A stretch of DNA of 64,000 nt from positions 2,554,888-2,618,887 of the forward strand of contig NZ_CP059066.1 of NCBI RefSeq assembly GCF_017301615.1, in the 5' to 3' direction. Of this stretch, positions 5,137 to 37,716 are shown in pieces. A program made the translations under genes and the position numbers. The first letter of the stretch is position 1. Each line of letters opens with the position of its first letter. The notes under the pieces were generated by a model, which was not told where the DNA came from, made no database searches, and saw nothing but the letters and a program-made list of their open reading frames with translations. This stretch comes from Koleobacter methoxysyntrophicus (GTDB lineage Bacteria; Bacillota; Thermosediminibacteria; Koleobacterales; Koleobacteraceae).

Positions 5137-5137
5137 A

Positions 5138-5482: not shown

Positions 5483-5486
5483 GTAT

Positions 5487-7303: not shown

Positions 7304-8059
7304 TTGAAGATTTTGATTACAAACGACGATGGTATACATTCAGAGGGGCTAAAAATCCTCGCCAAAGAGTTATGCGCCCTCGGAGATGTTTTTATTTTGG
7401 CTCCGGATAGAGAACGAAGTGCAACAGGACATGCTATAACTGTTCATCACCCATTAAGGGTAGAAAAGATTAAATTATTTAATGAAAAAATAGAAGCTTG
7501 GGCTGTAAATGGTACTCCCTCAGATTGCATAAAATTGGCTTTAGAGGCTATATTACCTCAAAAGCCTGATATTATTTTTTCGGGAATCAACAGAGGGCCT
7601 AATCTTGGAAATGATGTATTATATTCAGGAACAGTTTCGGCTGCCGTAGAAGGGGGGATGTTTGGAATACCTTCTATAGCTGTTTCCCTTGCGGTTAATG
7701 AAATAGAACTACTACCCGATTATAATGATGCTGCACGTTTTTCGAAAAAATTGGCTTTAAAAGTATTGGAAAATCAAATGCCCTCAGAGATTATTTTAAA
7801 TATAAATGTACCGCCTTCAAATATTGCAGGAATTGCTATTACCAAACTGGGAACCAGGAGGTATAAGAATACCTTTGATAAAAGAAAAGACCCCAGAGGA
7901 AAAATATATTATTGGTTGGCCGGGGAAGTTATAGAAGAACCTTTAGAACCTGATTCGGATGTCTGGGCTATTAAAAATAATTTTCTATCCATTACTCCCA
8001 TTAAATTAAACCTTACAAATTTAGAATTCATAGATATACTAAAAAAGTGGGACCTGTAG
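7304..8059 (+). CDS. surE: 5'/3'-nucleotidase SurE
   Basis: Divalent-metal-dependent nucleoside monophosphate phosphatase of stationary-phase survival. The 251-residue protein starts MKILITNDDG with the metal-binding Asp pair, followed by APDRERSATGHAIT, NGTPSDC and SGINRGPNLGNDVLYSGTV, all SurE hallmarks. The TTG start is preceded by GAGGAGGG. It runs in the same direction as the genes downstream. Confidence 0.95.
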   Translation: MKILITNDDGIHSEGLKILAKELCALGDVFILAPDRERSATGHAITVHHPLRVEKIKLFNEKIEAWAVNGTPSDCIKLALEAILPQKPDIIFSGINRGPNLGNDVLYSGTVSAAVEGGMFGIPSIAVSLAVNEIELLPDYNDAARFSKKLALKVLENQMPSEIILNINVPPSNIAGIAITKLGTRRYKNTFDKRKDPRGKIYYWLAGEVIEEPLEPDSDVWAIKNNFLSITPIKLNLTNLEFIDILKKWDL

Positions 8060-20284: not shown

Positions 20285-21106
20285 TCAGGCAATCTCGTCA
20301 AAGATCCGCAGCCATATTTCCTGAGCCCTGGCTTTCTTTTCAATTAACCATGGCCGGATCTGGCGGTCTATGGTAATAAACCCCTTAGTTTCAACAAAGG
20401 AAAATGTAGTTTGGATATCAACTTCCTGCCAAAGGCATACATCAAACCAAAGGGTTTTCTCCGAAAAATCTGTTAAGGTTATTTGGGTTTCCTTAGGGAA
20501 AAATGCTTCCAACAAACTAAGAATATAGGCAGAGTAGGGCACAGCCCATGAAGCTAAAATAGGAGCCTTGTTCCGCGTTACAAAATCTCCCTCAATAGCC
20601 AAAACTTTTGCCCTTCCCAGAGCTGCATCATCAAAATAAGCAGACAAGAGGGGGCCGGTTCTGTTTTTACCCCTCCCGAAATAGCTGACCAAGTAATCCT
20701 CTAATTGCTGGGTAGAAAAACTTGCTCCTAAGATATTTCTCCCTCTGGCAAAAACTTCGTGCCACACCTTTGCCCCAATATCACCGCGGCAGAGGTGCAT
20801 GTGCACCAGCCACTGGGTTAACGTTTCCCCTAAATATTTATCGTGTAGATAAACAGCTTCGCCAAAGGAAGTAAGAACCGGTTTTTTATGTTGCTTTTGG
20901 CTCCCAGGCCTAACTACTATCAAGCCCATACCTCGGCAGTAGTCAAGTATAGCTGGCATTTTTCCTGTAGATTTACCCGTAGGAATACCTGTATCCTCAG
21001 AGATTTCCTGTAAACTACCCTCTTTCCCCAGCGCTGCATATTCTAGGAGAGCAGCAATCAACCGCCTTTCAGGAATAAATGTTTTATGAAAATTTAGCGG
21101 TAACAT
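20285..21106 (-). CDS. Divergent DUF4007-like protein B
   Basis: 273 residues. The N-terminal half resembles a winged helix: FIPERRLIAALLEYAALGKE, then GIPTGKSTGKMPAILDYCRG, which aligns in spacing with LGVGKNMVSSIRFWC of DUF4007 protein A. A shared pattern TSFGEAVYLHDKYLGETLTQWLVHMHLCR matches TELGDKLL...EASLWLLHWQLF of protein A. DUF4007 proteins occur with phosphorothioation-type and other defence loci, with unknown role. GAGGAGGG precedes the ATG. It sits 14 bases upstream of ATPase B, suggesting the two proteins work as a pair. DNA binding is inference. Confidence 0.65.
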   Translation of the reverse strand: MLPLNFHKTFIPERRLIAALLEYAALGKEGSLQEISEDTGIPTGKSTGKMPAILDYCRGMGLIVVRPGSQKQHKKPVLTSFGEAVYLHDKYLGETLTQWLVHMHLCRGDIGAKVWHEVFARGRNILGASFSTQQLEDYLVSYFGRGKNRTGPLLSAYFDDAALGRAKVLAIEGDFVTRNKAPILASWAVPYSAYILSLLEAFFPKETQITLTDFSEKTLWFDVCLWQEVDIQTTFSFVETKGFITIDRQIRPWLIEKKARAQEIWLRIFDEIA

Positions 21107-21120: not shown

Positions 21121-24100
21121 TTAGAACCTTTCTTCCAGAGGCTTAATTTGAATCTTGAACCACTTATTCACTTCTAGCTTGTCGGTTCCTGGATTATAGG
21201 CATACCCTAAAGAATAGCACTCTCCCCGTTTTAAAGCGGATAGACGTTGGATCCAGTTTTCCTGACGATCATTGGTGGCATCCGCAAGCAACTGGGCAAA
21301 AAACTTAATTTCTGTGTCCGCTGGCTTAAAGAAGAGTTTATGGCTTGCTTGAAAGAGCCGGTCTCTTTCATCTTTACTCAAATTACTCAGAGTTTGAGTG
21401 GCGAGGATCAGAGAAATTCCAAATTTGCGCCCTTCGGTAAGAAATTGCCCTAGCGGACTTTCCAGGCGGTGATCAAGGTTCTGGATTTCATCCAACACAA
21501 TTACCCGAGGATTATCTTTACTGCCCCTGGCCCGGTAATACCAGTAGAGATCTATGAGAGAAAATTCTGTAATCAAGCGGGCCGAATCTTTCATGAAGCC
21601 GGCCAGTTGGAGGACGTGGCACTTGGAACAGGGGTCTAAGAATAACTTTTCCCAGCTCTCAAGATCTTCTTCGCCAAAGGGATTCATATCCACAAAAGGC
21701 TTTATCTTGTTAATTACCGTCGTTGCCGGGTTAGCAGATAATCCGCCTCTTGCCCGAATATCCTCTAATTTGTCCAGAAGCATTGTCAGGTTAAAATTGT
21801 TTCCTACTTCCTCTACCCCAGTTTGGACCGCATTATATAAAACTGATTTTTGCTGTTCTCCGAGTTTATAAACCTCGGCAAATACTCCGCTAACCCGCTG
21901 AGCTATCTGCGTTGGAGTATCTTCCAAAAGCTCATCGTCAATATAATCGCACTGCTTGCGGAAAGGATTGATAGCCAGCGGCTGTTTGCGGATAATGTGC
22001 TGTTTTGGCTGCAATCGTTCCCGGATAATCGGTTCCAATTGCTTGTTCGTAAAACCACTCGTATAGTCTACGATAAGACTGTTAGTTCCGCACTTGCTGA
22101 GTTCTGCCAGCACAGCTTGAATGGTATAAGTTTTACCGGTTCCAGAAGCCCCAAAGATAAGCAAATGCCGGTTAGGCAAGTCGGGATGGCCAAATTCCCA
22201 GTAAACGTCACGGCCACCAGCTGTGCCGCTTCCCAGCAAAATCCGTTCGGGGATACGGATTTCTCTATTCAGGATACCATCTCCAGCTTCGACCGGTTTT
22301 ACTCTAGAAACGCCAGCTTTTCCTTTGTCGTCTTCTTCTTTTTTGGGGCAAGTAGTAGATACTTGTTTCTCGATCTCCTTGGAATCGGTTTGCTCATTAT
22401 CCGTCAATGAACTACTTTCTGGCCGTACATGTTGGTAACGCAACATCGAACGGCCCTCAAAAAGGTTGAATTTTACCCCTTCAAAGCCTGCTTTTTGAAT
22501 AAATTCTTTGCCACATTGAACCGAATAAATATTTATTTCTTGTCCGTTAATACTAAAGCTCCATTGGGGGGTTGGCACTAAGTCCCCATGGGCAACATCA
22601 GTCCAAAAAGCAATTGCTGCAGCTTCCCACTCAATGTTGTAGCATCCCTCACTTAAGCTTTCCAGAGCTTGCAGAGTTTCCCGGTATTTAGCCTTTCGGA
22701 TCTCGCCCCGGCTGGTAATTAGCCGATGGAGTTGCATCCACCAGTACCGTTGATCAGGAGGATAACCTCCCTTATCTTCATCATCTACCCCTACTGGCTT
22801 CGTTGTCACCCGGGGGCGAAACTTGAGCACCAACTGCTTCAGCCCTTCTTCCACCTGCTGCAGGGCTTTTTCTAAATACCCCTCCGACTCTTGGGCTAGC
22901 TTGCATTCGATTATTTGCGCCTTAATATTGAAGCATCCATCTTCTATTTTGGCCTGGAGCCGTAATAGATCAGGACGCATTTCGTTCGGTCCGAAGTCAA
23001 ACCAATGCAGGAATGCATCTAAAGAAATAATCTCATCACAAAATACTTCATCTTCTTTCGGAAGCAGTTTTCTCACCAATGCATAAGCAATAAAATCCCG
23101 AACATATTCGGAAGGACCGGTAGCTTTAACCACAGATAAACCAGATATTGAGAAAGCTTCTTTAATCAGGCTATCTGCAAGCCTTGAGCAAACATTTTCA
23201 TCCCTATTCCCTAATAAAATTGCAAGTTGGTCACTAATTTTTTTGACGATATCAGATAGATAAAACTGTTCGGTAGAAATGGTAAAGTTGTACTCACCAT
23301 GTGGACCCACACCAGTACCAAATCCTATTATCTCCCTTTTGTTATCTTCTTTGCTCAAAAGTTTTTCATCTACGATAGAGTCAATGCAAACTACCCACAC
23401 GCAGTTTTTGTGAGCAACATCAATAACTCGTTCCCAAGGTTGAAAATCGCTGGTGCTTACCACCACATGCTCTACATTTTCATCAAGCTGATAGTGATTA
23501 TGCAGTCGGGCCATCACTTCTGCATGCAACGTACCCAACTTAAACCGCCGGTTGCTTAGCACCAATTCCCTTTCTTTAGCTTTTCCCCCTTCTGTGACCG
23601 CACAGCTTACCTTTTCCAGCACTGGAAACTTTACATAATCCTCAAATCCACACCGGCAATTATCCCCTAGGGGAACAAACTGGCTCTTTTTGGCCCGAGT
23701 AAAATTGTTAAAGAAAATCAGGTCAAGGTCTGTCTGCTGAATTAACTTCTCTAGCTGTTCCCAATCTCCATATGGCGCTACCCGGTAAAAGACCGAAACT
23801 TTGCTGCCAGCATAGTGTTTTCGCCTTGAATTGCCCTCTGCTTCCTGCCAACGTTCCTTCCAAGCGTTTATCCAATGCAACACTCCGGTATCATCAGGGC
23901 TGTCAGAAAAAATAGTTAAGTTTAAGGAGTAAATGTCATCAGCCTTCTCTTTTGTAATTTCAGCCAGAAAAGCATCAATCCCCCCTATTATCTGCTGTAT
24001 AGTGCCGCCACAGTATATTCCCACGCTTAAGCCGTCGTTGGCATAAGGATGCAGCTTACAGTAGTCAAGGAGGACATGCTTAATCAGCTTAACCTCTTGG

Positions 24101-26331
24101 GTTTCCCGAAACAGTCCTGCATCTGATATGTCCTGGTCTTCACTGTCTTCATATTTTACTAACAAGCGGGAGCTTATCGTCGAATAACCCTCCTCGGGGT
24201 TACCCACTAGATGGATATAATCAAAACTCCGCACGCTTGTATCTAACCTTGTGTTTTCATTCAAAACTCCCATAAGCGGCCATTTTATCCGGGCTAAATT
24301 TACTAACCTATGCCAATTTTTCTCAGCCATCCCCCGAGTTCCAACCTCTGCCAACCCTTTCCTAATGTAACTGCAAAAACTGGTACACAAATAAGTATGT
24401 TGATGGTGAATCATTTCTAATAACGCAGGATGTAGTGGGGTAACTACCCCACAATTCAAGAACTCCTTCCACTGCCAATTATTATTTTGGATGTACTTGT
24501 CAGGAATAAGCATAAAAGCCTTCATTAACAGTGGCGCCAGAGGGGTCTCGGAGCTTTTGGACAGATACATTTCAAGAAGCTGCGAGTATTCTCGGCGCAC
24601 AGGAGGATCATACTTTTTAGCCATAGCTGCAAAAAGGCCGACCCGAGAGTATTCATCCAAAAATTCTTGATAACAATCAGAGAGTTTATACAGTTGGTCT
24701 CTAAGTAAATCGTTTTGATCTAATCTAGGCGCCGCAAACAGATCTTCTATAGAACACAAGTTTTTTTCAAGGGCTATATTTAAAATCCGAATTATATCTT
24801 CATCATCTTTAGCCATAAACATCTCATTTACGTAAGGGAAAGCAAAAACTGGCAAAATAATATTTTTCTCATATTTATCTACCACCCAATTAAAAAGGTT
24901 AACAACAAAACGGGCTTGGTTATTTTTCCCTAATGACCATGCAAACTTTTGCTGAAAAGACTTACCTTCTTCCCCATCAACTGTAACTTCGAAAACAAGG
25001 GCTGGTTCAGCCGCCCGTGCCGGTGTATAGTGCAAATTTGAACCCGCATTATCAGGAGAAAGGAAAGATTCAATCTTAATTTCCTTTTTGTCATCACCTA
25101 AAGTTAAATGTTGTTTTAGATATTCATCGATCCCACCTAGCAACTTCTGCAAAAAATCTTGAGCCTTTTCTTTATCTTCATTCCCATACTGATGTCTAAA
25201 CTCCAGACTTCTTAGTGAAATCTGAACGATGTTCTCCAGTGCAAGTGAACTTCCGTTTAACTTTTTGAACTCCGCCAAGGAAAGCCAAAGAGCATGTAAA
25301 AAGACTTCTAAAGTTTGCCCCTTAAGTTTTTTAATCCGTTCCTTGCTTTCCCTGTTGGATTTAAGCTTAAATTCCAATATCTTGTCATAGATGTAAATGA
25401 AGTCTGCCGTAACCAGCTTATCCCGTGCTGTAGAAGAAGCAGTATCAATATATTCCTCTAATGAAGCAAGGAGTTCTTCTAGGTCAGAAAAATCACCCAA
25501 AATTTCTTCCTCTGGGGTCTCTGAAATGCGTTCTCTGAACTGGCCTATTTTTTTCTTTGCTTTTTTCTTTTTATCTACATCAAGGAAGCTGCTGTAGCTT
25601 GTAAATCTCTGGGCAGCCGCAATATAGTTGGCAAAGGTTCTCTTGCCGAATTTTTCAAACCCAATCATATTGGGCAAGCCAAATGGTTTAAGGTCAGCTA
25701 GGATGAGTTTGAACACATCCCTAGCATCTAACGCTCTGCTGAAGTCCCTGCTTTCCAAATACCGGCTTACCTCAAGGGGATCGGTTAAGCCATACTGATA
25801 AAGATCTTTAAAAATGGCAGCTATTTTTTCAATTGTATCTTCGTTCCCATCGGGATTTACATATTTTTGCAAAGCCTGCCTAACCCAGCTCTCAAAGCTT
25901 TGCTTAAGACATATTTCCCAAAGAGACTTCTGGTCTAGATGAAAAAAATCTTGTAAGCTGGCTTGGTCGTTAATATCTTCATAACCAGCTAGCAAAACTA
26001 CTAGACAATTAACGTCAGGTCCCTTGACAAGGTGGCGTAAACTCGTTAGATTATCTGTTTGGTTATACCATCCCCGCTCCTGGATTTGATCAAATATGTT
26101 TCTTTCCTTCTGCATGCCGTTGAGCCATTTTTGCCCTAACTGATAGGCAATCCCATATTCAAATTGGATCCTCTGGTTTACAATCCTGGTTATCTCTTCC
26201 TCCACCCTCCTGCCGATTTCAAATAGGAGTTCTGGAGGATATGATGGCAAGACAAACCGAAGAATACGGCCTGTGCTCTTTTGGCTTTCATCAACTATGT
26301 ACTTGACGATAGTATCAGCCATATACTTCAT
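21121..26331 (-). CDS. DptH-like HerA/FtsK-family ATPase
   Basis: 1736 residues from the chosen start. A long helical N-terminal two-thirds without recognised domains is followed by a HerA-type motor: Walker A FGASGTGKT ending near Lys1400, the element LIVDYTSGF, Walker B VIVLDEIQNL (Asp1614-Glu1615) and ILATQTLSNL. Length and the DYT-GF motif resemble DptH of phosphorothioation-dependent restriction systems, which uses ATP-driven translocation in a restriction complex. The reading frame is open to 26406, but GGGAGG ahead of ATG 26331 makes that the start and leaves a 19-base gap from the preceding gene. No nuclease signature was recognised; the NERD protein of the operon may supply it. Confidence 0.8.
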   Translation of the reverse strand: MKYMADTIVKYIVDESQKSTGRILRFVLPSYPPELLFEIGRRVEEEITRIVNQRIQFEYGIAYQLGQKWLNGMQKERNIFDQIQERGWYNQTDNLTSLRHLVKGPDVNCLVVLLAGYEDINDQASLQDFFHLDQKSLWEICLKQSFESWVRQALQKYVNPDGNEDTIEKIAAIFKDLYQYGLTDPLEVSRYLESRDFSRALDARDVFKLILADLKPFGLPNMIGFEKFGKRTFANYIAAAQRFTSYSSFLDVDKKKKAKKKIGQFRERISETPEEEILGDFSDLEELLASLEEYIDTASSTARDKLVTADFIYIYDKILEFKLKSNRESKERIKKLKGQTLEVFLHALWLSLAEFKKLNGSSLALENIVQISLRSLEFRHQYGNEDKEKAQDFLQKLLGGIDEYLKQHLTLGDDKKEIKIESFLSPDNAGSNLHYTPARAAEPALVFEVTVDGEEGKSFQQKFAWSLGKNNQARFVVNLFNWVVDKYEKNIILPVFAFPYVNEMFMAKDDEDIIRILNIALEKNLCSIEDLFAAPRLDQNDLLRDQLYKLSDCYQEFLDEYSRVGLFAAMAKKYDPPVRREYSQLLEMYLSKSSETPLAPLLMKAFMLIPDKYIQNNNWQWKEFLNCGVVTPLHPALLEMIHHQHTYLCTSFCSYIRKGLAEVGTRGMAEKNWHRLVNLARIKWPLMGVLNENTRLDTSVRSFDYIHLVGNPEEGYSTISSRLLVKYEDSEDQDISDAGLFRETQEVKLIKHVLLDYCKLHPYANDGLSVGIYCGGTIQQIIGGIDAFLAEITKEKADDIYSLNLTIFSDSPDDTGVLHWINAWKERWQEAEGNSRRKHYAGSKVSVFYRVAPYGDWEQLEKLIQQTDLDLIFFNNFTRAKKSQFVPLGDNCRCGFEDYVKFPVLEKVSCAVTEGGKAKERELVLSNRRFKLGTLHAEVMARLHNHYQLDENVEHVVVSTSDFQPWERVIDVAHKNCVWVVCIDSIVDEKLLSKEDNKREIIGFGTGVGPHGEYNFTISTEQFYLSDIVKKISDQLAILLGNRDENVCSRLADSLIKEAFSISGLSVVKATGPSEYVRDFIAYALVRKLLPKEDEVFCDEIISLDAFLHWFDFGPNEMRPDLLRLQAKIEDGCFNIKAQIIECKLAQESEGYLEKALQQVEEGLKQLVLKFRPRVTTKPVGVDDEDKGGYPPDQRYWWMQLHRLITSRGEIRKAKYRETLQALESLSEGCYNIEWEAAAIAFWTDVAHGDLVPTPQWSFSINGQEINIYSVQCGKEFIQKAGFEGVKFNLFEGRSMLRYQHVRPESSSLTDNEQTDSKEIEKQVSTTCPKKEEDDKGKAGVSRVKPVEAGDGILNREIRIPERILLGSGTAGGRDVYWEFGHPDLPNRHLLIFGASGTGKTYTIQAVLAELSKCGTNSLIVDYTSGFTNKQLEPIIRERLQPKQHIIRKQPLAINPFRKQCDYIDDELLEDTPTQIAQRVSGVFAEVYKLGEQQKSVLYNAVQTGVEEVGNNFNLTMLLDKLEDIRARGGLSANPATTVINKIKPFVDMNPFGEEDLESWEKLFLDPCSKCHVLQLAGFMKDSARLITEFSLIDLYWYYRARGSKDNPRVIVLDEIQNLDHRLESPLGQFLTEGRKFGISLILATQTLSNLSKDERDRLFQASHKLFFKPADTEIKFFAQLLADATNDRQENWIQRLSALKRGECYSLGYAYNPGTDKLEVNKWFKIQIKPLEERF

Positions 26332-26350
26332 ACCGATAACCTCCCATTTT

Positions 26351-27976
26351 CTAGAACTGCGAGCTGAAGGGATTATGGACGATGGAACACCCATCAGAAA
26401 GTTCAATCAAAAATCCGCCAGCCCTCAGCATCTGGGTAAGCCAAGAACCCTTTTCCGGTTGCACCGAACTATTGGCAGGCAACCCACTCCAAACCACTGC
26501 ATCCAGGAGTTCTTCGCCCTCAACAGCAATACCGTACTGGCAGTAGAGCCTGTGTCTAAACTGGTGATATTGGTAGCGTTCCCCTGGTGCCAGTACAGAC
26601 AGAACTAAATAGCGGAGCAATTTATCCGTTAAAATAAATCTGGGTTCCGCCCCTCTCCACGGGCCAATAATACCCAATCGCTTGCCCAGAGTGCGGAATA
26701 ATTTATGTCCATATTTGTTTTCAGCTTCCCTTAACAACCAATCTGGCCCACTACTCTGACTTTCGCGATGCTTTGCTGCATGTTTTACTAAATCTTCGTT
26801 ATGGATAGCGCGTTGTATTAACCTAAAGACCATTTGGAGGTTGTGGCAGGTAGCCAATCGCTGCTGGCGGGTAAATCCCTCCAACGGAGAGAATACCCAG
26901 GCATAACCCAGCACACTGCCCTTGCCCTCTGTTATGGGTAAGTCAGCATACCTAATACTTTGGGCGCATAGGCTCCGCATTACCTGCAAAGCACAGCCTA
27001 TCTGCAACAGCTCTAACCGTTCAACTGGATCCAAAGCCGCCCTTAATACTCGACTTATTTCTACTGCAAAAAGGTACGCTTCTTGCCAGCTATCTTCTGG
27101 ACACCATTCGCACGATAATTTATCATCCTCCTTATTAGTTTTCCAGTGAGTTTCTGGATCAAGGTTTTCTATATAATCCACCAACTTGTCCAAGGCAACA
27201 AACTGTTCATTCTGCAACCCCTGCAACCCCTTTTGCAAAGACAAATGCAGCAAGTTAAGATCAGCTTCCGCAGGGGAAGCATCTATCGCTTTGGCAAGAG
27301 AGGCGATATCTCGGCCTTTACCAGCAAAGAGGTTGCATAGTTGAAGATACAGCAGTTCACCACCGCGGGCGAGAAAGCGATGTTTTGAAACGCTATAATA
27401 CGTATGAAATTTGTGAACCCCCTCAAGCCAATTTGTTAAAGGCGAATTTTTTGCTACAGTATTATTCCATAACGTCTCCTGAACAAGAAAACTTGTTGTA
27501 ACCGGATAAAAAGTCTGTGCACACCAAGTTCTCTCAAAACCTGCCCCCTGGAATCCCATTAAAAAGTCCTCAACCCATTCCTTTACTTCTTCAGGTTTTT
27601 TGCTCCATGTCCGAACTTTCTCAGTAAATGTTTTCATTAACTTTTCATAATGATCTTCATGCACCTTGTGCCGGGAATCAAGGGGTGAAGCACATAATAG
27701 GGCAAATAGTTTTAGGTTTAGTTTTATCGGGGGCTTGTATTTTAACTTTTCGCCCTGAACAGACGCCCAGCGGTACAACTCAGGTAAAGGTGGTAAAGGA
27801 TTTTTAATCGGTCCATTAGAGCCAATCCACTTCTCTGAAAAAGCAACAGACATAAATTCTGCCAGCAGCTCCACTACCGTCTGATCTGTAAAGAATCGCG
27901 AGCCAAACAATCGGATAGCGGGGTTAAATGCTTGATTTGCCTCATCTATCTTGGGGAAGGGATTTGGTAAACCCAT
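26351..27976 (-). CDS. Unrecognised cassette protein (541 aa)
   Basis: I do not recognise the family. 541 residues, probably soluble and largely helical. A CEWC motif in KLSCEWCPEDSW (about residue 287) could bind metal. The C-terminal 120 residues (KLFRTLGKRLGIIGPWRG, then FILTDKLLRYLVLSVLAPGE) look like a winged-helix or wHTH-containing region. The start ATG shares its A with the stop TGA of the kinase gene, a translational coupling signal, and AGAGGTGA lies just upstream. It occupies the position that DptG takes between DptF and DptH in dpt operons, but no sequence resemblance to DptG was noticed. Confidence 0.75.
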   Translation of the reverse strand: MGLPNPFPKIDEANQAFNPAIRLFGSRFFTDQTVVELLAEFMSVAFSEKWIGSNGPIKNPLPPLPELYRWASVQGEKLKYKPPIKLNLKLFALLCASPLDSRHKVHEDHYEKLMKTFTEKVRTWSKKPEEVKEWVEDFLMGFQGAGFERTWCAQTFYPVTTSFLVQETLWNNTVAKNSPLTNWLEGVHKFHTYYSVSKHRFLARGGELLYLQLCNLFAGKGRDIASLAKAIDASPAEADLNLLHLSLQKGLQGLQNEQFVALDKLVDYIENLDPETHWKTNKEDDKLSCEWCPEDSWQEAYLFAVEISRVLRAALDPVERLELLQIGCALQVMRSLCAQSIRYADLPITEGKGSVLGYAWVFSPLEGFTRQQRLATCHNLQMVFRLIQRAIHNEDLVKHAAKHRESQSSGPDWLLREAENKYGHKLFRTLGKRLGIIGPWRGAEPRFILTDKLLRYLVLSVLAPGERYQYHQFRHRLYCQYGIAVEGEELLDAVVWSGLPANSSVQPEKGSWLTQMLRAGGFLIELSDGCSIVHNPFSSQF

Positions 27977-30900
27977 CAAATCACCTCTAATCCATCTTCA
28001 CTTACCTGCAAATTCAGTTCTTCAAACCTGCGGTCAGGACGGATTCGCAGCAGGTATAAGGTATCGCTTTTATCCTCTTGAAAGTTTTTGCTGCATTCCT
28101 TCAACAATTTGCCCTTAAAGTCTTCCAGCCGGTTACTATAGTAGGCTGACAATTCTTGAGCTATTTCACCTTCGTAACGGCGGGCAACGTAGTCAAAGAA
28201 AGGAAGGTCAAGCTCCAACTCTACTGGTTCTGCTGCTGCTTTGTAGATAAGAGAGAAAACTTTATTGCTACCTCCATCAGTTTTATATTGATAGCGGGGC
28301 TTCACCACGAGCTCAAAGTCATCTTGGCGCAATCTCGCCAGTATCATCTGAGTTCCCACATTATTGCCAGGTGATTTTAAGGTAATGTATATATCTTTCC
28401 CTTCCTTCCACGTTTCTTCTGGTAAACGCAATCCGGTAAAGTGCTCTTGCAAGACATGTAAAACCTTAATGCAAAACCTGCGCAGGTGAGAACGCAAGGG
28501 CGCATTCTCACGCGTAACTTTTAAGTAATCCAGGAGCATAGGCGAATCTAAAAAGGTAGAAATAAATTTTTCCCGTTCATCACCTTCAAACCTGCCGCAA
28601 AAGTAGGCCAAACGTCTAATTTGACGGCGTAGTACCGATTTGTCTATTGCCTGGGGAGAATGATTTTTAATCAAAAGCTTGTATGCCTCTCTAGCTTCGG
28701 AATTTAACACAGTATATGCCTCTTCCTTCAGCCAGGTCTTCCTCTCAAATTTAGGCACAAGAGTTGAGCCAAACTTAATCTCTTGGATAACCTTTACCGG
28801 CACTAACTTCATCGCCTCAGGAACAACCTTGCTTCCGTCATCTCCGAAAAACCGATTAAAAAATCCCAAGCGGCACAAGAGCTGCCGCCTAGCCAGCAGG
28901 GACATATTTGCCACATCAGAACAATTTAGTCCACCGGTAAGAGCATAGGCTAGATGTCCTGTCATCTGGCGCATCGTAAGCCGCTGGCCATATTCATAAA
29001 GACGTTTGTAAAGGAGATACACCCGCTCCAAAACCAGCTCCAAGTTGCTTTGCAGCAACTTAACATTGCTTAAAATTGGACAATCTCCATAGAACTTACA
29101 TTGAGAGCAACCAGTCCAGTTTTCGGGCTCTAACATTCGTTTGAATACATCACAGGCAATGTTGATACTGTCCAATTGACCGATGTTTAGTAAACGAAAG
29201 CGATTATCCATTATTTCAGTAGGTTCACTGGCTTCTAGTGCGCTAAGTAAAATAGTTTCGCTAACATCTTCTCCCATCACTGCCTTTAGCTTTCCAAAGG
29301 CCTCCAATAAGGTTCCGGTGTTGGATACAATTAGGTATGTTTTCAACTCATTTTCCAAAGCTTCTTTAAGAACATAGGCGCGATCCTTTTCTGGCAACTC
29401 GCTCATATCTTTTATGATAACGAGATTTTGATCTGGAACTTCTTGTCGAGGATTAAGCTCCCGAAAATTATCACCCATAACTTTTTGCAGAATATCAACA
29501 GCAATGGTAGTTTTACCATCCCCGGCATTGCCGGTTAAAATAACATTTTTCCCTTCTTCTAGCCATTGATGTATTGTATCGGTTAGCGGGTTGCGTATAT
29601 AAATCTTGGCGAAATGTTCATTTCTAATTTGACACTCTGCAATGGCGTTTTCGTTACCGGCTGAGGCACAAGAAAGAGAGTTGAGGTAGGCAACAAATGA
29701 GTTATATTCATCAAGGTCGAGTGCAGGTTCTCTGGCTGCGTCTTTAGTATCAGCAGGCAGAGTTTCTACTTCATCTGCTTCCTCAAGTGATGTTTCCTCT
29801 TCAATAGGTGCACCCTTTACAAACATATCCCACATTTCTGTAATAGTAGCAAAACCTTCCCTAGGCTCAGTAGCAACGGCCTTTAGCAACCAGGGGTACA
29901 AATCCCGGAATTCTGGCAAGTCCTCAGGCAGCATCGGCTTATCACCAACAGCTGGATTTGCATAAGGTTTTTGACCAAATAGCCATTCCCATAGGGTTAC
30001 CCCTAAGGCAAAGAGATCTCCCCTAGGTGAAAAATCCCGATCCGCTCCCCTAATAGTATCAGGAGGAATGTAACCGCTGGTTCCCTGAAAGACATCTACC
30101 CTGGGTTCACCAGCAAGGCCAAAATCGATTATGACCGGTTTCTGTTTAGAGGTAATTATTATATTTTCAGGTTTTATATCACCGTGAACAATTTGCTTCC
30201 CTTCTCCGTTCTCATCTTTATGTTCATGGAACGCTCGAATGCCTTCCATTAGCGAGCGGGCAACGCTGTTAAAAGTATTCCTGTCTGGTCTTTCCTTGCG
30301 GCCAATTAGTTCCCGAAGGGTTTGTCCCGGAATATAATCCATGACAATAAAGTAGCGTTTGCCATGCCAGTGCCCGGGTCTGCGCTCACAGCGAACCACA
30401 TAGGGCGAGCGAATTTCGCAACCTACATCCAACTCTCTGAAAACTCTGTCTAGTGACGTTTCGTAGTTAAAAACTTTTAGGACAACTATCTGCCCTCGGG
30501 GGGCCTTCGCCTTGTATATTTGTGTTTCTGCCCCCTTGCCAATAAACTCAACTATCTCATACATATTATATATATCCCCTGGCTGCAGCTTGGAGTTCTC
30601 AGGCAATACTTCAACGTCCCTGTCCTTTTTCGCATTGTAGCGAGTCAAAACAGAAAGAACAGTATCAATATCCTTTACGCGCTTTGTCCGATCAGCCGTA
30701 ATCATTTTCTCAATGACTCGAACTTTAGCTTCCGGAACACCTGCTTTCACCAATCTCTGCCTATTTTCGGTAGACAATGCTCCCCCCCGAGCCACAAACT
30801 CCCGCGTAGACTTAAAAGGCTTTTCACCTGTCAACAGATGATAAGCGATTACGCCTAGACTGAAATAGTCAGTGCTTTCATCAATATCTTCGCCGAAAAG

Positions 30901-32505
30901 AAGCTCCGGTGCTACATAACCGTCATCTTTAATTTTGGCAGCATCGGGGATTACAGTAAGGCGGTTGTCTTCTAGTTGAAAAGAGAGATCGAAATTCATC
31001 AGTTTAGGTATTCCGTTCTTAATTAGAATGTTTTCCGGTTTAACCGCACGGTGAATTATATTTTCTTGGTGGGCCTTATTCAATGCCAAAGCTATATTTC
31101 TGCATATTGTTAACCCCTGCTCTAAAGGCAATCTGCCTTCAGACTCATAAATTAAATCTTGCAACGTCCCCGTTTCGGACCATTCTGAAATTTCAATAAT
31201 ATCGCCTTCCTCTGTCTGACTCACAGATACTTTATGAATATAGGGATGTTCGCCGATTTGTTGCACCGCATCCAATGTATTTAAAGCTATTTTTCTAAAA
31301 CGTTCTCTTTCCTGTTCCGATTCTTGCACAAAACGAAACACTCTTAGTCGGTGCAAACCCTTGGCCTTTACACCAATTGGTCGGGCCAATAATTCTATAT
31401 ACTCTGGCTTTTGAGAAAGATATTCCACAGTTTCATAACCTGGTACCGTATATTCCTTCTGCTGTTTTGGCCTATTTAGATCAGCCAAAAAATCTGCAAT
31501 TGCACACACTTGGTTCTCTTCCAATATTTGCATCTTCTTATCTCTTCTCTTTAAGTAGGATATAAAATCTGCTATAGATGCGAAGGTTAAATTGTGCCGA
31601 CCTTTTATGTCCGCAACCTCAGGTGAATCAGCTCTTTCTACTATGGCTTCTGGATTTGTCAATACGACAACAGACTCTACCCATACATCGGGATACGTAA
31701 CAAATCTATGTTGATAAATTCCCTTCAAAACTTTACATTTAAAGCTGTTGTTTTTGTGGGGATCAACCCGATACCGGTTTTTATTAATACGCCATTGATA
31801 ACCTTCAATCTCTATATGCCCAGACCAATGCTTTAGCTCAACAACATAGATTCCAGAACGAGCTATTATAATAAGATCATACTCATAGTAATTGTTCGTT
31901 TGTACATCAAAAATGTAAACATTTGCTAACGTTTTAATTATTTTTTTATCTAATAAACGTATAATACAATCGATTGCGCTTTTTTCATAATCAAATAAAG
32001 ACCCGTGAAGATAATATTTACTTGTATTCTCCTTTAGTAGCATCGGGTCATCATCTGTGTTTTCCGGTTGAGTATCAGCAAACTTGTTTAATATAGAAAT
32101 AAGTTTTTTTTTAATTATTTCTCTTGTATCTTTATTTGTAAAAAATTGAAATACATCATCACTTAAAAAAGCGTAATCTACATTTCGATTTAGATCACCG
32201 GGCCCTCCCACTGTTGACATTTCAGCTAAAAAATTATCCCGACCAGATTTTGGTTTTAAGTGCCAGAAGTTATCACTTTTCAAATGAAAAAAAGGAATAT
32301 ATGGCCTATTGGAAGCATGATATTTATATTTATTTAAATATTTAGAAAAAATCTTTTTAAGCTGTTGATCGAAGCATATTTTATTTGCTGGCTCGGCCTG
32401 TTCACCTAGTAAATCAATGACAGTTAACAGCAAAATAAATTTATGGGGCTTATGAAACTTTTTTGCCATTGCATCAAGGTGTGCCAAAAAATTTTCAAAA
32501 GTCAT
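27976..32505 (-). CDS. Multidomain protein: reader-like N terminus, NERD nuclease-like, pseudokinase, Ser/Thr kinase, P-loop NTPase
   Basis: 1509 residues. (1) 1-140: HKFILLLTVIDLL and PYIPFFHLKSDNFWHL, a pattern like the N-terminal sulfur-binding domains of ScoMcrA-type endonucleases (inference). (2) About 165-340: NERD domain with PD-(D/E)xK-like Asp210, Glu223, Lys225 (VVELKHWSG). (3) 360-620: pseudokinase, HRD changed to HRA (485-487) and DFG to NFD (504-506). (4) 645-900: complete kinase, Lys677, Glu691, HGDIKPEN with Asp776, DFG 794-796. (5) 930-1509: P-loop GNAGDGKTT (992-1000) and a Cys cluster GCSQCKFYGDC. NERD-kinase layout recalls PglW of Pgl/BREX type 2. DNA for residues 1 to about 215 is far more A+T-rich than the rest. 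GAAGGAT precedes the ATG. Confidence 0.85.
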   Translation of the reverse strand: MTFENFLAHLDAMAKKFHKPHKFILLLTVIDLLGEQAEPANKICFDQQLKKIFSKYLNKYKYHASNRPYIPFFHLKSDNFWHLKPKSGRDNFLAEMSTVGGPGDLNRNVDYAFLSDDVFQFFTNKDTREIIKKKLISILNKFADTQPENTDDDPMLLKENTSKYYLHGSLFDYEKSAIDCIIRLLDKKIIKTLANVYIFDVQTNNYYEYDLIIIARSGIYVVELKHWSGHIEIEGYQWRINKNRYRVDPHKNNSFKCKVLKGIYQHRFVTYPDVWVESVVVLTNPEAIVERADSPEVADIKGRHNLTFASIADFISYLKRRDKKMQILEENQVCAIADFLADLNRPKQQKEYTVPGYETVEYLSQKPEYIELLARPIGVKAKGLHRLRVFRFVQESEQERERFRKIALNTLDAVQQIGEHPYIHKVSVSQTEEGDIIEISEWSETGTLQDLIYESEGRLPLEQGLTICRNIALALNKAHQENIIHRAVKPENILIKNGIPKLMNFDLSFQLEDNRLTVIPDAAKIKDDGYVAPELLFGEDIDESTDYFSLGVIAYHLLTGEKPFKSTREFVARGGALSTENRQRLVKAGVPEAKVRVIEKMITADRTKRVKDIDTVLSVLTRYNAKKDRDVEVLPENSKLQPGDIYNMYEIVEFIGKGAETQIYKAKAPRGQIVVLKVFNYETSLDRVFRELDVGCEIRSPYVVRCERRPGHWHGKRYFIVMDYIPGQTLRELIGRKERPDRNTFNSVARSLMEGIRAFHEHKDENGEGKQIVHGDIKPENIIITSKQKPVIIDFGLAGEPRVDVFQGTSGYIPPDTIRGADRDFSPRGDLFALGVTLWEWLFGQKPYANPAVGDKPMLPEDLPEFRDLYPWLLKAVATEPREGFATITEMWDMFVKGAPIEEETSLEEADEVETLPADTKDAAREPALDLDEYNSFVAYLNSLSCASAGNENAIAECQIRNEHFAKIYIRNPLTDTIHQWLEEGKNVILTGNAGDGKTTIAVDILQKVMGDNFRELNPRQEVPDQNLVIIKDMSELPEKDRAYVLKEALENELKTYLIVSNTGTLLEAFGKLKAVMGEDVSETILLSALEASEPTEIMDNRFRLLNIGQLDSINIACDVFKRMLEPENWTGCSQCKFYGDCPILSNVKLLQSNLELVLERVYLLYKRLYEYGQRLTMRQMTGHLAYALTGGLNCSDVANMSLLARRQLLCRLGFFNRFFGDDGSKVVPEAMKLVPVKVIQEIKFGSTLVPKFERKTWLKEEAYTVLNSEAREAYKLLIKNHSPQAIDKSVLRRQIRRLAYFCGRFEGDEREKFISTFLDSPMLLDYLKVTRENAPLRSHLRRFCIKVLHVLQEHFTGLRLPEETWKEGKDIYITLKSPGNNVGTQMILARLRQDDFELVVKPRYQYKTDGGSNKVFSLIYKAAAEPVELELDLPFFDYVARRYEGEIAQELSAYYSNRLEDFKGKLLKECSKNFQEDKSDTLYLLRIRPDRRFEELNLQVSEDGLEVI

Positions 32506-32520: not shown

Positions 32521-33333
32521 TCAAGTTAAAAATCTTAAGGTCTTAAGCAGTTTACACGTAGTATACTCTGTTTTTAAGTCCCTATTTTCAACACCGTTTT
32601 TACCTGAATGCTGAAATTGTTCTTTTTTATTAAGTAGCTCACCTAAGCTAATATCTTGACACCAAGTAAACCTGATTCCCTTCTCAGGAAGATAAGTTTC
32701 ATATTTCATCGCTTTATAATAAAGACTTGGATGATGTTCATAAAGTCCTAACCACTCCTTCTTTGTTTGATAGAAACAAAAGTAGCAGCCAGACCTTTTA
32801 CGCCAAGAATAATAAGCAGGGAATCCTAAACCTGAACCAACAAGAAGATCTCGGATATCTTTATAAACTAAGCCATCCTCAATAAACGGAAAATGAACTT
32901 TTAGGTAAGGGTTTCGCGCAATTAACCCTTTACGTTCTCGCGCCTCATCCGCTCGTAGGCCTACATAGCTATGTACTATACATCCTGGAAATCTTTCATT
33001 AATCCATTTTTCATAAGGTATAAGTTTCAAGACCTCTGTACACCATCTGTTCTTAGGGGAAGGCAGGTAAGTAAAAGTTCCATAAGGAGTTTTTTTTACT
33101 TTTGTTAAAGCCCAATAATCATCCCAACCCTTTTCGGGCTTTACAACAGTTATATCAATATTTAATACTGCCCTTATTCTATCCAAATACTCATAAGTTT
33201 CAGGCAGCTCGCAACCACTGTCAGTAAAAACATACTCTAGGTCCAAATGCGGGTATTTTTCTCTTAAATACACTGCTAAGGCTGCACTATCCTTGCCTCC
33301 TGACAATGCAAGAATATGTCGCTCTTGTTTCAC
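32521..33333 (-). CDS. DndC/CysH-like PP-loop sulfurtransferase
   Basis: 270 residues from GTG 33333, chosen because AGGTGG lies eight bases upstream; the longer GTG start at 33345 overlaps that signal. The PP-loop SGGKDS (11-16) adenylates substrates in the PAPS-reductase/N-type ATPase fold. RWCTEVLKLIP (Cys98) and GCYFC (Cys183, Cys186) are the expected iron-sulfur ligands of DndC-like enzymes; YVGLRADEARE is the conserved superfamily arginine motif. In Dnd and Ssp systems such a protein inserts sulfur into the DNA backbone with a cysteine desulfurase. It is shorter than DndC (about 500). No desulfurase is in the operon. A sulfate-assimilation role is unlikely given the context. A+T-rich relative to neighbours. 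Confidence 0.85.
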   Translation of the reverse strand: MKQERHILALSGGKDSAALAVYLREKYPHLDLEYVFTDSGCELPETYEYLDRIRAVLNIDITVVKPEKGWDDYWALTKVKKTPYGTFTYLPSPKNRWCTEVLKLIPYEKWINERFPGCIVHSYVGLRADEARERKGLIARNPYLKVHFPFIEDGLVYKDIRDLLVGSGLGFPAYYSWRKRSGCYFCFYQTKKEWLGLYEHHPSLYYKAMKYETYLPEKGIRFTWCQDISLGELLNKKEQFQHSGKNGVENRDLKTEYTTCKLLKTLRFLT

Positions 33334-33337
33334 GGTA

Positions 33338-36300
33338 TCAACCACCTAACATGATTTTGTCAGCCAAAAGTGCCAATACTGCTCTAGATTTTTCCTGAGG
33401 CAGAGCTAATATTTGCTCCAGGATCCGCTCTACCTCAGGGTCACTATTGTCAATTCTTACAACTTCCCTTTTTATATTACCATCAGATTTCATCACGCTG
33501 ATCATCTGAACATTCTCTATGGGCAAGTCATGAGCAGTTGCCAACGTCTCTAACTGCTTAATACGCTCGGCATAATCAGCTAGCTTAGCTTCAAATACTG
33601 CAAGGTCCTGATCCTTCCAGGCATCTACCGGCTTCTTCACTACTGCTCCAGCTATGCCCCTTACCCAATCCTCCACATTGGATTCATCTCTAGCCATAGC
33701 TTGAAGGACAGGTTTTAGATCAGTAGCATCACAAATTGTTATTAAATTCTGGGCAATCGTTCTTTGGGAAGAACATAACTGTTCAAGACTTAAGCTGGGA
33801 AAACTTTTCAGCAGCGTTTCTTGTATTCTCTTGTTTAACCGCTCATATGCCTGGCCAAGCTCACTTAGTGTAGATCGTAAACTGTTCTCCAAGTCCTCAA
33901 CCCATGTATCTGCGCTCTTTCCGTCAATATCTATTCCTAATGCTTTGGGCAGGTCCTCGAATAAAAAGCTTAGAGGATCGACAGCATTTGCAATAACTGA
34001 TCGCACTCGCTGGGACCTCATTGATATGTTCCGCGTCTGCTTTGAATAACGCGGCAATTGATCAACAAACTTCATTAAAGGCCCTAGAACCCCCAACATA
34101 GTCGCGTTTCTCAAGTTTGGATCTGTTTTTATCTGAGATTTTTTTAAAACAGCCTTGTATGCAGCGAAAACTTTTTCCTGCATACCGTTAGTGATAAATT
34201 TCTTGACAGTAAATAACTCAGGGCGTTTAAGGAGTAAGGCCATATCTGCGGCAGACAAATATGGGTGGTAAGCACCCTCGCGAAATACAGTTAAGTTTTC
34301 CGCATTTACAAGCAAGTAAAGCGATATGTAAATAAGGGCAGGACCTTGCTTCAAACCAAAGGGAATCTCCCGCAGCCTATCTAACATGGCAGCAACGCTG
34401 ACCCCTTGGTCATCAGTCTTTTCTAAGAGTTGGTCAAGTTCTTCCCATGCTTTATTCAAATTAGGATCAGTTCCTTCTAGGGTTAACTGCCAAGTGCCGG
34501 TCTTTTTATTCTTTATGTGCAGTCCCTTAGCAAGAAGAAGAGATTTATATATAGCCACTTCTGGCCCCCAGCCAGTAAAACCCAGGTTTTCTTCCTCTGC
34601 CCTAGTTGCCATTGCCTCAACAAGTTTCCGGCGGGCCCTCACAGCAGCACTCGATAGCTTTTCACTGCTGATAATCTCGTTTTTAATGGTAGGTGCATAT
34701 TTGTAATAAGCTTGACAAAGTTCAGATATCTTTACTGATAACTCTCTACGGCTTAGAATTTGGCACTTTTCTCCTTCAGTATACCAGAGCAGACCAGCTG
34801 CCCCTGGGGCAAAAGCCCTTGCTAGATACTCTCGAAATCTGTCCTGGGACACCCGAAGTCTAAAATTCACCTCTTTACGTGCAACCTTATCATGGGTAAG
34901 TTGGTGATAATTTTCCAAGACACGCTGACAGGCAACAATCTCTAAGGCTATCTCTGATAAGGTTTCCTTTACAGGGGCATGAGCCACTAGAATCGGGCGC
35001 CCATCACTGCAAACTTTGGGAACCTTCCCTGGCTCTTTTTGGGTCCCATAACAGTAAATCAAAAGACCATCAAACCCTTTTTGGGGAGCTAGCTTATCCG
35101 ACAGAGATTCTACATCAAGCCAACGCCGCTCAAACCGGCGCATAATTCCCTTTTGATGGGCATAACGGGCAGCAATTATAGGGGATAAAGGTAAGTTTGC
35201 TTCTAGAATTTCTTCCAGAGAACCTAAAGATAGTTTAGACTTCTCTTTGTCAATTGCCCCACTTACGTCAAAATCTGAACCTTCCCACAGGCGGAATTCA
35301 CCAGCATAATCCCTATAAAAAATTACCCCTCGCTGGTCAAGAAAATCTAAGATTTTTTTTACCTTTTCTGGTGCCCAGAGGTAGGAGTATTCCATAATTG
35401 AAGCGATAACTTCAAAGCTTGCCTTTAGTCCCAATGACCCTGCCAACAAATTAAGAATCCCAATGTTTTTTAATAAAACAGATTCTTCCTCGCTAAATTG
35501 ATCTGCAGATTGAATAATATCGTTAATCTCGACCCACCGCTGAGTTGCAGGTCTATTTGCTAATGACGTATGGCTAAACTGAAAGAAATAATCATACAGA
35601 CAATCTAGACCCACAGCAGGCAGTCTTTTGTCAGGATCAAAGTACATTCTTTCAATTTGAGCAGGAAGAGCGTACATGTGCCCACTAGATAAGAAGGAAA
35701 CCAACGTTCTTTCGTTTTGCGCAAACCGACGGCAGAGTTCAATTAAAGCTAAACTTGTAAGTGGATGCAATGGATATAGTCTGACCATGGAGTCAACGTC
35801 TAAATATTCTTTTCCTGCCACGCTGATATTCTCTAAGGATTCTTTAATCCTCATTTCCCATTCTTTAACTCGTTTTTGCAAATCTTCCTTAAAATTATGA
35901 TTAAGAATAGTTTTAATTAAATTAAGCATCTGAGCAGTGGACTCGATAAACGATATTTCTTCAAAGCGCCCTTGGACTTTATTCCATTCTTGTTGTTGGA
36001 CTGCAGAAAATCCAGACATATATTCATCAAAAGCCTGATGCAAACAAACCCACAAATAGACATTATTCATCTCTGCTAACTGCTGGAGAATAAAAAGATC
36101 TCCATTATGGCAATGGTACGATAAGTATTCTAAATTTTTGCCTAGTTCGTCTATCACAATAACAAGAGGGGTTTCGGCTAACTTCGCTACAGCTTTAAAT
36201 AAAGTTAAAAGCTCGTTGGGTTCAATTGAACCATTTTGCAACATCTCGTCTATATTAGTACGAATTTTATCTTTATTTTTTAGTTCAGATTGGGAAACAG

Positions 36301-36718
36301 CACTTTGTAAACCTCGGGCTAAAGTAGTATTCATTGACTCAAAGGAAGCAACAATAGGAACCCGGAAAAATCCCGCTTCCCCAGTTATTTGCTCTTTTTT
36401 TTCTAAAAACCTGTCGTATAGTTCTTGATTGGACAGCTTTAACTTATGCAAAGCCGTTTGTGTTAAACTACTAGTTTGTGGACCAGTAACAGCAAGAAGA
36501 AAGTTGAGGAAGGCAGATTTACCCATGCCATACGGCCCAACCAAAGACCAAGCAGTTACCTTTTCATCACCCAGAGCCGCTATAAAGCGCTCCATAACTT
36601 CCTGGGCTTTTGCAGTAACTTGGTAATTATTTAAAACATCAAGCTCGGATTTGTCTCGCTCTAGATTAATAGACCGGGCGAATTTCTTATTCAGGACAAT
36701 AACATCTGATAGCTTCAT
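33338..36718 (-). CDS. Giant AAA-type ATPase A
   Basis: 1126 residues, starting MKLSDVIVLNKKFARSINLERD. Walker A GPYGMGKS at 61-68, Walker B VIVIDELGKNLEYL around 187-200 (Asp190, Glu191), then a sensor-like segment VYLWVCLHQAFDEY. The rest is helical with no recognised enzyme domain. The ATPase type resembles the large ATPases of Pgl/BREX loci and of other DUF4007-associated loci. It begins three bases after the DUF4007 A stop, with GGGGAGAT upstream, and ends four bases before the sulfurtransferase start, so the three are probably co-translated. Resemblance to ATPase B in start sequence, P-loop position and Walker B suggests an ancient duplication. Confidence 0.85.
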   Translation of the reverse strand: MKLSDVIVLNKKFARSINLERDKSELDVLNNYQVTAKAQEVMERFIAALGDEKVTAWSLVGPYGMGKSAFLNFLLAVTGPQTSSLTQTALHKLKLSNQELYDRFLEKKEQITGEAGFFRVPIVASFESMNTTLARGLQSAVSQSELKNKDKIRTNIDEMLQNGSIEPNELLTLFKAVAKLAETPLVIVIDELGKNLEYLSYHCHNGDLFILQQLAEMNNVYLWVCLHQAFDEYMSGFSAVQQQEWNKVQGRFEEISFIESTAQMLNLIKTILNHNFKEDLQKRVKEWEMRIKESLENISVAGKEYLDVDSMVRLYPLHPLTSLALIELCRRFAQNERTLVSFLSSGHMYALPAQIERMYFDPDKRLPAVGLDCLYDYFFQFSHTSLANRPATQRWVEINDIIQSADQFSEEESVLLKNIGILNLLAGSLGLKASFEVIASIMEYSYLWAPEKVKKILDFLDQRGVIFYRDYAGEFRLWEGSDFDVSGAIDKEKSKLSLGSLEEILEANLPLSPIIAARYAHQKGIMRRFERRWLDVESLSDKLAPQKGFDGLLIYCYGTQKEPGKVPKVCSDGRPILVAHAPVKETLSEIALEIVACQRVLENYHQLTHDKVARKEVNFRLRVSQDRFREYLARAFAPGAAGLLWYTEGEKCQILSRRELSVKISELCQAYYKYAPTIKNEIISSEKLSSAAVRARRKLVEAMATRAEEENLGFTGWGPEVAIYKSLLLAKGLHIKNKKTGTWQLTLEGTDPNLNKAWEELDQLLEKTDDQGVSVAAMLDRLREIPFGLKQGPALIYISLYLLVNAENLTVFREGAYHPYLSAADMALLLKRPELFTVKKFITNGMQEKVFAAYKAVLKKSQIKTDPNLRNATMLGVLGPLMKFVDQLPRYSKQTRNISMRSQRVRSVIANAVDPLSFLFEDLPKALGIDIDGKSADTWVEDLENSLRSTLSELGQAYERLNKRIQETLLKSFPSLSLEQLCSSQRTIAQNLITICDATDLKPVLQAMARDESNVEDWVRGIAGAVVKKPVDAWKDQDLAVFEAKLADYAERIKQLETLATAHDLPIENVQMISVMKSDGNIKREVVRIDNSDPEVERILEQILALPQEKSRAVLALLADKIMLGG

Positions 36719-36721: not shown

Positions 36722-37642
36722 TCATCTCCCCGAATAGTATTTATTCAATGCTTCAAAGTATAGCTCTTCTGGAGACTCATTAAAATGTAACTGCAAGCTT
36801 CCTAAAACATTAACCAACGAAAAACCTTTTAGGTCCTTATTTGCTTCGCTCAAATAATGTCCCACCGCGGTTTCAGGTAACTTAAAAACAACGCCTGGAG
36901 AGTTAATCCCAAAAGCTAAACGCTGAAGCGATATGGTTTTTTGCCTCGACGATAAATAGGAAGCTACATAAGAAAAGCAGGCAGCAGCAAAAATCAGCGG
37001 CGGAAGATTTGGTTTAGGTGCAGTATTAAAACTAACGTGGTATTTCTCTCCTGCCCTGTGCATAAGTCCTAATTGGGTAAAAGGACATTCAATTTCCGAA
37101 TCTTTTTCTTCCATATCTTCATACATTCTAATTATACAAGAAGCATCCCGTCTAAAAGTATTGAGGGACATCTTTGCCAAATTCGGATATGCTTGAGCAG
37201 CACTATAAATTATCCTGCTCAACTCCTTACTATCGAAACTCCACAGATTACAACGGTTAAAGGCTAAAGGCCAACTTACAGCTTCAAAGGGAGGAACAAA
37301 CAGTTGCCAGTGCAACAACCATAAAGAGGCTTCGTCCTCGAGATAAGGATCCCAGCCATTGTTATCGCTAAGTAGCTTATCGCCCAATTCAGTTGGAACA
37401 ATCTCATTTCTATTATCTACCGTGATTAACTTAAATGCTAGACACCAAAAACGTATAGAGCTGACCATGTTTTTGCCAACCCCAAGTTTTTCAATGGCAT
37501 CCGGCTCTTTAAAGATATTGTTATTTTCTATAACGGCATCAAATCCTTTTTTAAGCCAGCCATATCTCGGTGTAAAGGTTTCATGTCTTCCTAATTTACC
37601 CTGCGCTATCCATTCTTCAACATTAAATTCTTGCTTATTCAT
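36722..37642 (-). CDS. DUF4007 family protein A, first gene of the cassette
   Basis: 306 residues from ATG 37642. A clear DUF4007 signature: ETFTPRYGWLKKGFD, DAIEKLGVGKNMVSSIRFWC and EASLWLLHWQLF. The family is associated with phosphorothioation-like and other defence loci; its biochemical role is unknown, but the N-terminal part looks like a winged helix, so DNA binding or transcriptional control is possible. The frame is open to TTG 37663; GGAGG overlaps that TTG, so the first downstream ATG is preferred although the spacing is long. The start is therefore uncertain by seven residues. It heads the eight-gene operon. Confidence 0.8.
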   Translation of the reverse strand: MNKQEFNVEEWIAQGKLGRHETFTPRYGWLKKGFDAVIENNNIFKEPDAIEKLGVGKNMVSSIRFWCLAFKLITVDNRNEIVPTELGDKLLSDNNGWDPYLEDEASLWLLHWQLFVPPFEAVSWPLAFNRCNLWSFDSKELSRIIYSAAQAYPNLAKMSLNTFRRDASCIIRMYEDMEEKDSEIECPFTQLGLMHRAGEKYHVSFNTAPKPNLPPLIFAAACFSYVASYLSSRQKTISLQRLAFGINSPGVVFKLPETAVGHYLSEANKDLKGFSLVNVLGSLQLHFNESPEELYFEALNKYYSGR

Positions 37643-37716
37643 TTCAGCGTCCACATCCTCCAATGTTTTGAGGCGCTCCCCTAAAAAATAAGCCGAACAG
37701 CACGCTCAAATCTAAT

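Follow-up and report, generated by a model that had tools for sequence, protein, structure and literature searches.

The N-terminal 146 residues of an SspF restriction protein from Koleobacter methoxysyntrophicus are almost certainly a phosphorothioate (PT) sulfur-binding domain (SBD), and the gene for this protein lies directly behind the genes that write the PT mark. The window, that is the whole stretch of 64,000 nucleotides that was analysed, contains an sspBCD-sspFGH PT restriction system of known kind with a reader-bearing SspF variant. The host open reading frame of the SBD (27976-32505, minus strand) begins with ATG, is preceded by an AGAAGGA Shine-Dalgarno-like stretch and encodes 1509 aa, in which the computed domain order is SBD, NERD nuclease, pseudokinase, kinase and SspF core:

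32068..32505, minus strand: SBD of the SspF fusion, residues 1-146 (phmmer, family profile, AlphaFold2 model, Foldseek/VIA-align, pocket counts)
31657..31965, minus strand: NERD nuclease domain, residues 181-283 (Pfam NERD, 3e-14)
30679..31296, minus strand: pseudokinase, residues 404-609 (Pfam kinase stretch and motifs)
29956..30561, minus strand: kinase, residues 649-850 (Pfam Pkinase, 8.1e-61)
28069..29703, minus strand: SspF core, a P-loop NTPase, residues 935-1479 (PADLOC SspF, 5.6e-42)

A sequence-only reading had placed a putative sulfur reader at 32086-32505, correctly as to position but leaving the minus strand unstated; the plus-strand translation of this interval is full of stops. 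The stretches it quoted are present in the protein, HKFILLLTVIDLL at residues 21-33 and PYIPFFHLKSDNFWHL at residues 68-83.

Three agreeing routes establish the identity of the SBD. When residues 1-146 were compared with all PDB chains by phmmer, the best chain was SBDHga (8h0l, E 6.2e-19) and the runner-up reached only E 0.38. A profile built from 29 relatives matched seven SBD chains in the PDB, of which 8h0l scored 4.6e-39 and the six chains of ScoMcrA and SprMcrA lay between 2.7e-4 and 3.9e-3; one unrelated chain stood at 0.44. The third route was the one proposed beforehand, structure prediction followed by superposition, and it returned the SBD fold: for the AlphaFold2 model (mean pLDDT 94.4) the top Foldseek match was chain B of 8h0l (E 3.6e-9, TM 0.78/0.80, rmsd 2.5; 31% Foldseek identity with chain A), and rows 1-12 of the PDB list were all SBD or SBD-containing chains. 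VIA-align gave Z 18.9 against 8h0l (rmsd 2.6, 145 aligned) and Z 11.2-12.0 against the SprMcrA and ScoMcrA SBDs, with Cdc6/ORC winged helices ranking below the SBDs at Z 9.9 and under. This ranking agrees with a winged-helix nature of the SBD, the view taken in the available text of PMC10853773, where the SBD of SBD-SRA-HNH enzymes is termed wHTH. Pfam placed zero families in residues 1-146, even at E 10, and the NCBIfam model for PT-DNA enzymes matched weakly (E 2e-5, 23.9 bits vs a cut-off of 180). The likeness to ScoMcrA that had been noticed by eye holds for SBD fold and sequence; the nearest solved relative, however, is not ScoMcrA but SBDHga, which was solved as a separate domain and crystallised with PT DNA.

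The residues that contact the sulfur in ScoMcrA are H116, R117 (most homologues have K here), Y164, P165 and A168; substitutions at P165 or R117 abolish or strongly reduce binding (PMC6224610, available text). The counterparts by alignment are H21, K22, I70, P71 and H74 in the window and H28, K29, L78, P79 and H82 in SBDHga, so that H, K and P are common to both. The three pocket codons are:

32443-32445, minus strand: codon of H21
32440-32442, minus strand: codon of K22
32293-32295, minus strand: codon of P71

A pocket of H, K/R and P is also that of the PT-dependent HNH enzymes ScoMcrA and EcoWI, in which the SBD directs an HNH nuclease to PT DNA, whereas the window SBD is fused to SspF beside a PT writer. 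An SBD fold and the residues that receive the sulfur were the two points on which the sequence-only reading had staked its assignment, and both were found. In order to place H21, K22 and P71 in their family, we drew on an SspF-core scan of genome contigs, which is no census and from which the best 80 of at least 264 relatives (at least 591 stretches) were taken. In 56 SBDs, from 50 of these 80 loci, the window, four other genomes and one SBD-HNH protein, H21 is kept in 50/54, K22 in 53/54 and P71 in 53/56 of the rows with letters, and these three belong to the best-kept positions of a family with a median column conservation of 32%. Altered pockets read D-N-A in L026, Y-K-A in L065 and L086, and N-K-P in L071. 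The SspF of L026 (910-5358) has an SBD-like N terminus that retains the sequence pattern of the fold with all three pocket residues gone. Alignment A3, composed of 22 of the 29 extracted SBDs and 7 others, lacks L026, L050, L071, L080, L086, L087 and L092, three of them with an altered pocket, and its invariant columns are biased for that reason; alignment A4 comprises seven gamma-type SBDs, with L071 and L086 omitted.

The resemblance to Cdc6/ORC winged helices (Z up to 9.9), the proof from L026 that the pocket can be lost and the I70 that aligns with the lid tyrosine of ScoMcrA would all suit a plain winged helix that contacts DNA or protein and has lost its PT selectivity in this lineage. 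We hold this to be quite improbable, as the window retains H21, K22 and P71, as SBDHga, with the same H/K/P and crystallised with PT DNA, has L at the I70 position, and as Y164 is itself variable, being poorly conserved across SBDs according to the available text of PMC6224610. Judging by sequence and model, the SBD of SspF probably binds PT.

Behind the SBD, the NERD domain has the PD-(D/E)XK residues D210, E223 and K225, which are kept in 25/25 aligned relatives with letters; this and the kinase counts refer to an alignment of 26 related proteins. Active kinases have HRD and DFG motifs. The first kinase-like domain has HRA (485-487) instead of the former and NFD (504-506) instead of the latter, and the catalytic Asp of HRD is replaced in 23/25 relatives. 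The motifs of the second are intact (K677, HGD 774-776, DFG 794-796), with K, H, D and D kept in 26/26 relatives. The SspF core displays a Walker A motif, GNAGDGKT, at residue 992 and matches nSTAND3 (2.5e-6). With the core of a known restriction subunit as its C-terminal part, this protein is a fusion form of SspF. The description of a kinase protein with a NERD nuclease was borne out (Pfam 3e-14 for NERD and 8e-61 for the kinase), although it had missed both the 545-residue SspF core (5.6e-42) and the flanking sspB, sspC, sspG and sspH.

Parts of this architecture have precedents. PglW of type 2 BREX unites NERD, pseudokinase and kinase in one protein like the window SspF, the NERD-kinase combination being described again in PMC12839542, and the PADLOC PglW model matches residues 169-987 of the window protein at 5.6e-69. 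The available text of PMC12839542 does not mention an SBD on PglW, and the C-terminal half of the window protein is SspF instead. Membership in BREX was rejected on account of this SspF half; in addition, PglX and PglZ were called in 0/8 cluster proteins scanned. DndF consists of an N-terminal wHTH, NERD, an inactive kinase, an active kinase and a core (PMC10853773), which is the order of the window SspF. The available text of that paper does not name the DndF wHTH an SBD and proposes DndG as the PT discriminator; unlike in this description, the wHTH of the window is an SBD with a pocket and stands in an sspBCD context. No report of an SBD on SspF or DndF was found in the literature searched, with supplements and most subscription journals lying outside the search. 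As far as these sources go, the wHTH-NERD-kinase order is already known, while the interpretation of that wHTH as a sulfur reader is apparently new.

The genes around sspF identify the system:

36722..37663, minus strand: sspB, DUF4007 (Pfam DUF4007 3.4e-86; PADLOC SspB 6.3e-98)
33338..36718, minus strand: sspC, large P-loop ATPase of the writer (PADLOC SspC, best bit score 1091)
32521..33345, minus strand: sspD, PAPS-reductase-like sulfur-transfer enzyme with SGGKDS at residue 15 (PADLOC SspD 1.5e-87)
26351..27979, minus strand: sspG (PADLOC SspG 2.3e-17, C-terminal part only)
21121..26406, minus strand: sspH/dndH-like gene (PADLOC DndH 7.8e-59, SspH 5.4e-20; Pfam HerA)
20285..21106, minus strand: B2, a second, divergent DUF4007 gene (Pfam DUF4007 3.8e-7)
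15942..20270, minus strand: C2, a second SspC-like gene (PADLOC SspC 8.6e-20)

The gene for the SspF fusion sits directly downstream of sspBCD and is followed by sspG and sspH, and it is this arrangement that makes the system one of a known kind. Writer and candidate reader are adjacent, as had been noticed, with sspD directly upstream of the SBD-bearing sspF. That upstream gene, which had been labelled DndC-like, encodes a PAPS-reductase-family protein whose better match is SspD (1.5e-87): as DndC it reaches only 3.4e-5 in PADLOC, and 13.7 bits vs the 290.4 of the TIGR03183 equivalog. The sspH/dndH-like product has a nuclease-like ECK motif at 1167 and a C-terminal HerA/FtsK ATPase. Three strong cysteine desulfurase candidates, recognised by class-V aminotransferase matches, are encoded in the same genome and could, by their sequence, be the sulfur suppliers. 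Elsewhere in the window, six tRNA genes stand in tandem at 5061-5561 on the minus strand, and a plus-strand open reading frame at 5168-5527 is most likely no gene because it overlaps this array.

According to the available text of PMC8092258, the SspABCD-SspFGH system of Vibrio anguillarum FF-93 has in common with the window sspBCD followed by sspF with a Walker A motif, sspG, and sspH with an FtsK-like end. The FF-93 SspF is set apart by its description there, which gives a Walker A motif only, whereas in the window the SspF core is preceded by an SBD, NERD and two kinase domains, and B2 and C2 follow past sspH. Among the 59 of the best 80 loci that extend at least 1.5 kb past sspH, B2 comes after sspH in 55 and C2 in 53. 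The published cassette comprises three genes, yet B2 and C2 commonly trail sspH, and many SspFGH systems therefore look like five-gene restriction sets with their own SspB/SspC-like pair. On three alphaproteobacterial plasmid sspABCD-FGH operons (L109, L110, L111), a gene annotated as 'DNA phosphorothioation-associated putative methyltransferase' comes next, with no DUF4007/SspC-like pair.

How widely the SBD accompanies SspF was assessed in two samples. A phylum survey of 398 genomes yielded 15 with a match; the SBD was covered in 7 of these, window included, and in 7/7 its gene is directly downstream of sspBCD. Within the 80 best-matching loci the SBD is present in 50 (in 4 as a separate or split open reading frame) and absent in 26 where the SspF start lies away from the contig end, 4 being not judgeable. 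Fusion to the SspF core occurs both with NERD-kinase and without it, as in L021, one of the seven genomes of the phylum survey, where SBD and core are joined directly; in L083 the SBD forms a stand-alone gene located between sspD and sspF. The NERD-kinase part is present or absent independently of the SBD among these loci. A gammaproteobacterial SspF group has a different SBD, nearest to ScoMcrA (5zmo, E 3.5e-15). No match was obtained when E. coli was scanned with a gammaproteobacterial sspF gene, no relative when viral contigs were scanned with the SBD, and a plasmid tblastn with the window SBD gave only HNH-type or hypothetical relatives in 12 records. Three alphaproteobacterial plasmid operons, which run cysteine desulfurase, DUF4007, sspC-like, PAPS reductase, sspF, sspG and sspH, encode in the same operon place an SspF of 603-626 residues with no SBD. 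In the Bacillota SspFGH loci L090, L091, L094, L097, L098 and L100-L102, a long SspD (about 570-620 aa) is found together with a cysteine-desulfurase-like gene between sspC and an SBD-less sspF. Finally, L022, another of the seven genomes of the phylum survey, has directly behind sspBCD, in place of sspF, a gene (6641-7513) for an SBD-HNH protein, the HNH being called by eye. This is the type of a PT-dependent restriction enzyme and should cleave the marked DNA of its host unless the sequence context differs; fewer than 3.6% of PT-dependent enzymes of the SBD-HNH type adjoin a dnd cluster (PMC7461809, available text).

We then asked if the SBD goes together with the writer, using the 58 loci that remain of the best 80 after removal of 22 whose SspF begins at a contig end or which have less than 5 kb upstream. 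The locus contains sspD in 35/35 cases with the SBD and, by HMM, in 13/23 without it, a count that rises to 15/23 when the PP-loop sspD of L091 and L098 is added (Fisher p 2.6e-4). However, a wider genome search for the 8 writer-less loci without the SBD revealed a strong sspB-type DUF4007 gene in 7/8 genomes, so that most of the 'no writer' calls stem from short flanks, and an independent-pairs test of SBD against writer on the SspF tree did not reach significance (4 starred pairs, median p 1). Co-occurrence was accordingly dropped as support. L026, considered as a natural experiment in which writer and pocket were lost together, fails as well: upstream there is a transposase-like fragment (label by eye) and no sspBCD, but a strong sspB-type DUF4007 gene is present on the same contig about 6.6 kb past B2. 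As its pocket is lost though this gene is on the contig, L026 speaks against PT reading as a universal role. Apparently SspFGH can also function when the SBD is missing, given the SBD-less SspF proteins on plasmids and the 15/58 loci with sspD and an SspF lacking the domain.

Distances between proteins were also compared. In 28 loci and given the SspF core, the partial Mantel r of the SBD is 0.28 with SspB, 0.20 with SspC and 0.23 with SspD, and 0.20 with SspG and 0.21 with SspH; this mirror-tree test does not single out the writer as partner of the SBD. The slight tracking of SspB beyond the SspF core (partial r 0.28, 28 loci), the position of the SBD beside sspD and the presence of PT at only part of its sites (PMC8092258, available text) might be taken to mean that the domain serves the writer, reading existing marks and helping to place or count PT with no direct control of attack. 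Such a role is very unlikely in our view: the values for SspG (0.20) and SspH (0.21) are nearly equal, and the SBD is fused to a restriction subunit and not to SspB, SspC or SspD.

We rather favour a role of the SBD in restraining the restriction complex. According to the available text of PMC8092258, SspFGH damages PT-free DNA and harms PT-free cells, which sspBCD rescues, and PT reduces the ATPase of the related DndFGH (PMC11662687, available text); it is on this toxicity without PT and this lowered ATPase that restraint by self PT is proposed. The insertion of sulfur into host DNA would be the work of SspB, SspC and SspD, aided by a housekeeping cysteine desulfurase, and the H21/K22/P71 pocket of SspF would receive the sulfur of the PT link. 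Bound PT would be a self signal by which the SspFGH motor and nuclease are held back, while DNA without PT would be open to attack by SspFGH; the NERD nuclease and the kinase on the SspF chain may be further or last-resort effectors. We lean towards this whole chain, from reading of self PT by the SBD through restraint of SspFGH to NERD and kinase as added effectors; three of its steps are inferred, namely the binding of PT, the restraining and not activating effect of PT, and the targets of NERD and the kinase.

The opposite sign has also to be considered, with the SBD as an activating sensor through which PT on host or other-strain DNA switches on NERD or the kinase. PT stimulates the NTPases of SspE and DndI (PMC11662687), ScoMcrA and SprMcrA carry their SBDs as enzymes that cut PT DNA (PMC6224610, PMC7470945), and in L022 an SBD-HNH enzyme replaces sspF behind sspBCD. 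We nevertheless consider activation unlikely, because the toxicity of SspFGH arises without PT and is relieved by it (PMC8092258; for all these papers, the available text) and because a nuclease that PT switches on, encoded next to its own writer, requires a further signal to spare the host.

A wider version of the restraint proposal, which we find possible but doubtful, is that SspF is the missing PT reader of many SspFGH systems, and that SBD, NERD and kinase form a guard within one chain whose firing in the absence of PT provides a suicide layer. Such a guard would rest while PT is felt, and its NERD and kinase would fire when PT is missing or when a phage blocks the writer; the PT-less DNA that triggers it could come from an invader or be newly replicated.

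Which subunit reads the PT mark was left open in the available text of the 2021 SspFGH report (PMC8092258). The SBD of SspF with its intact pocket, a type of domain present in 50/80 best-matching loci, is a small and concrete candidate for this reader, an interpretation that is tempered by the SspF proteins without an SBD. It links the writer of a mark and its candidate reader to a nuclease and a kinase within one operon, and it suggests how such anti-phage systems could distinguish their own DNA from viral DNA.
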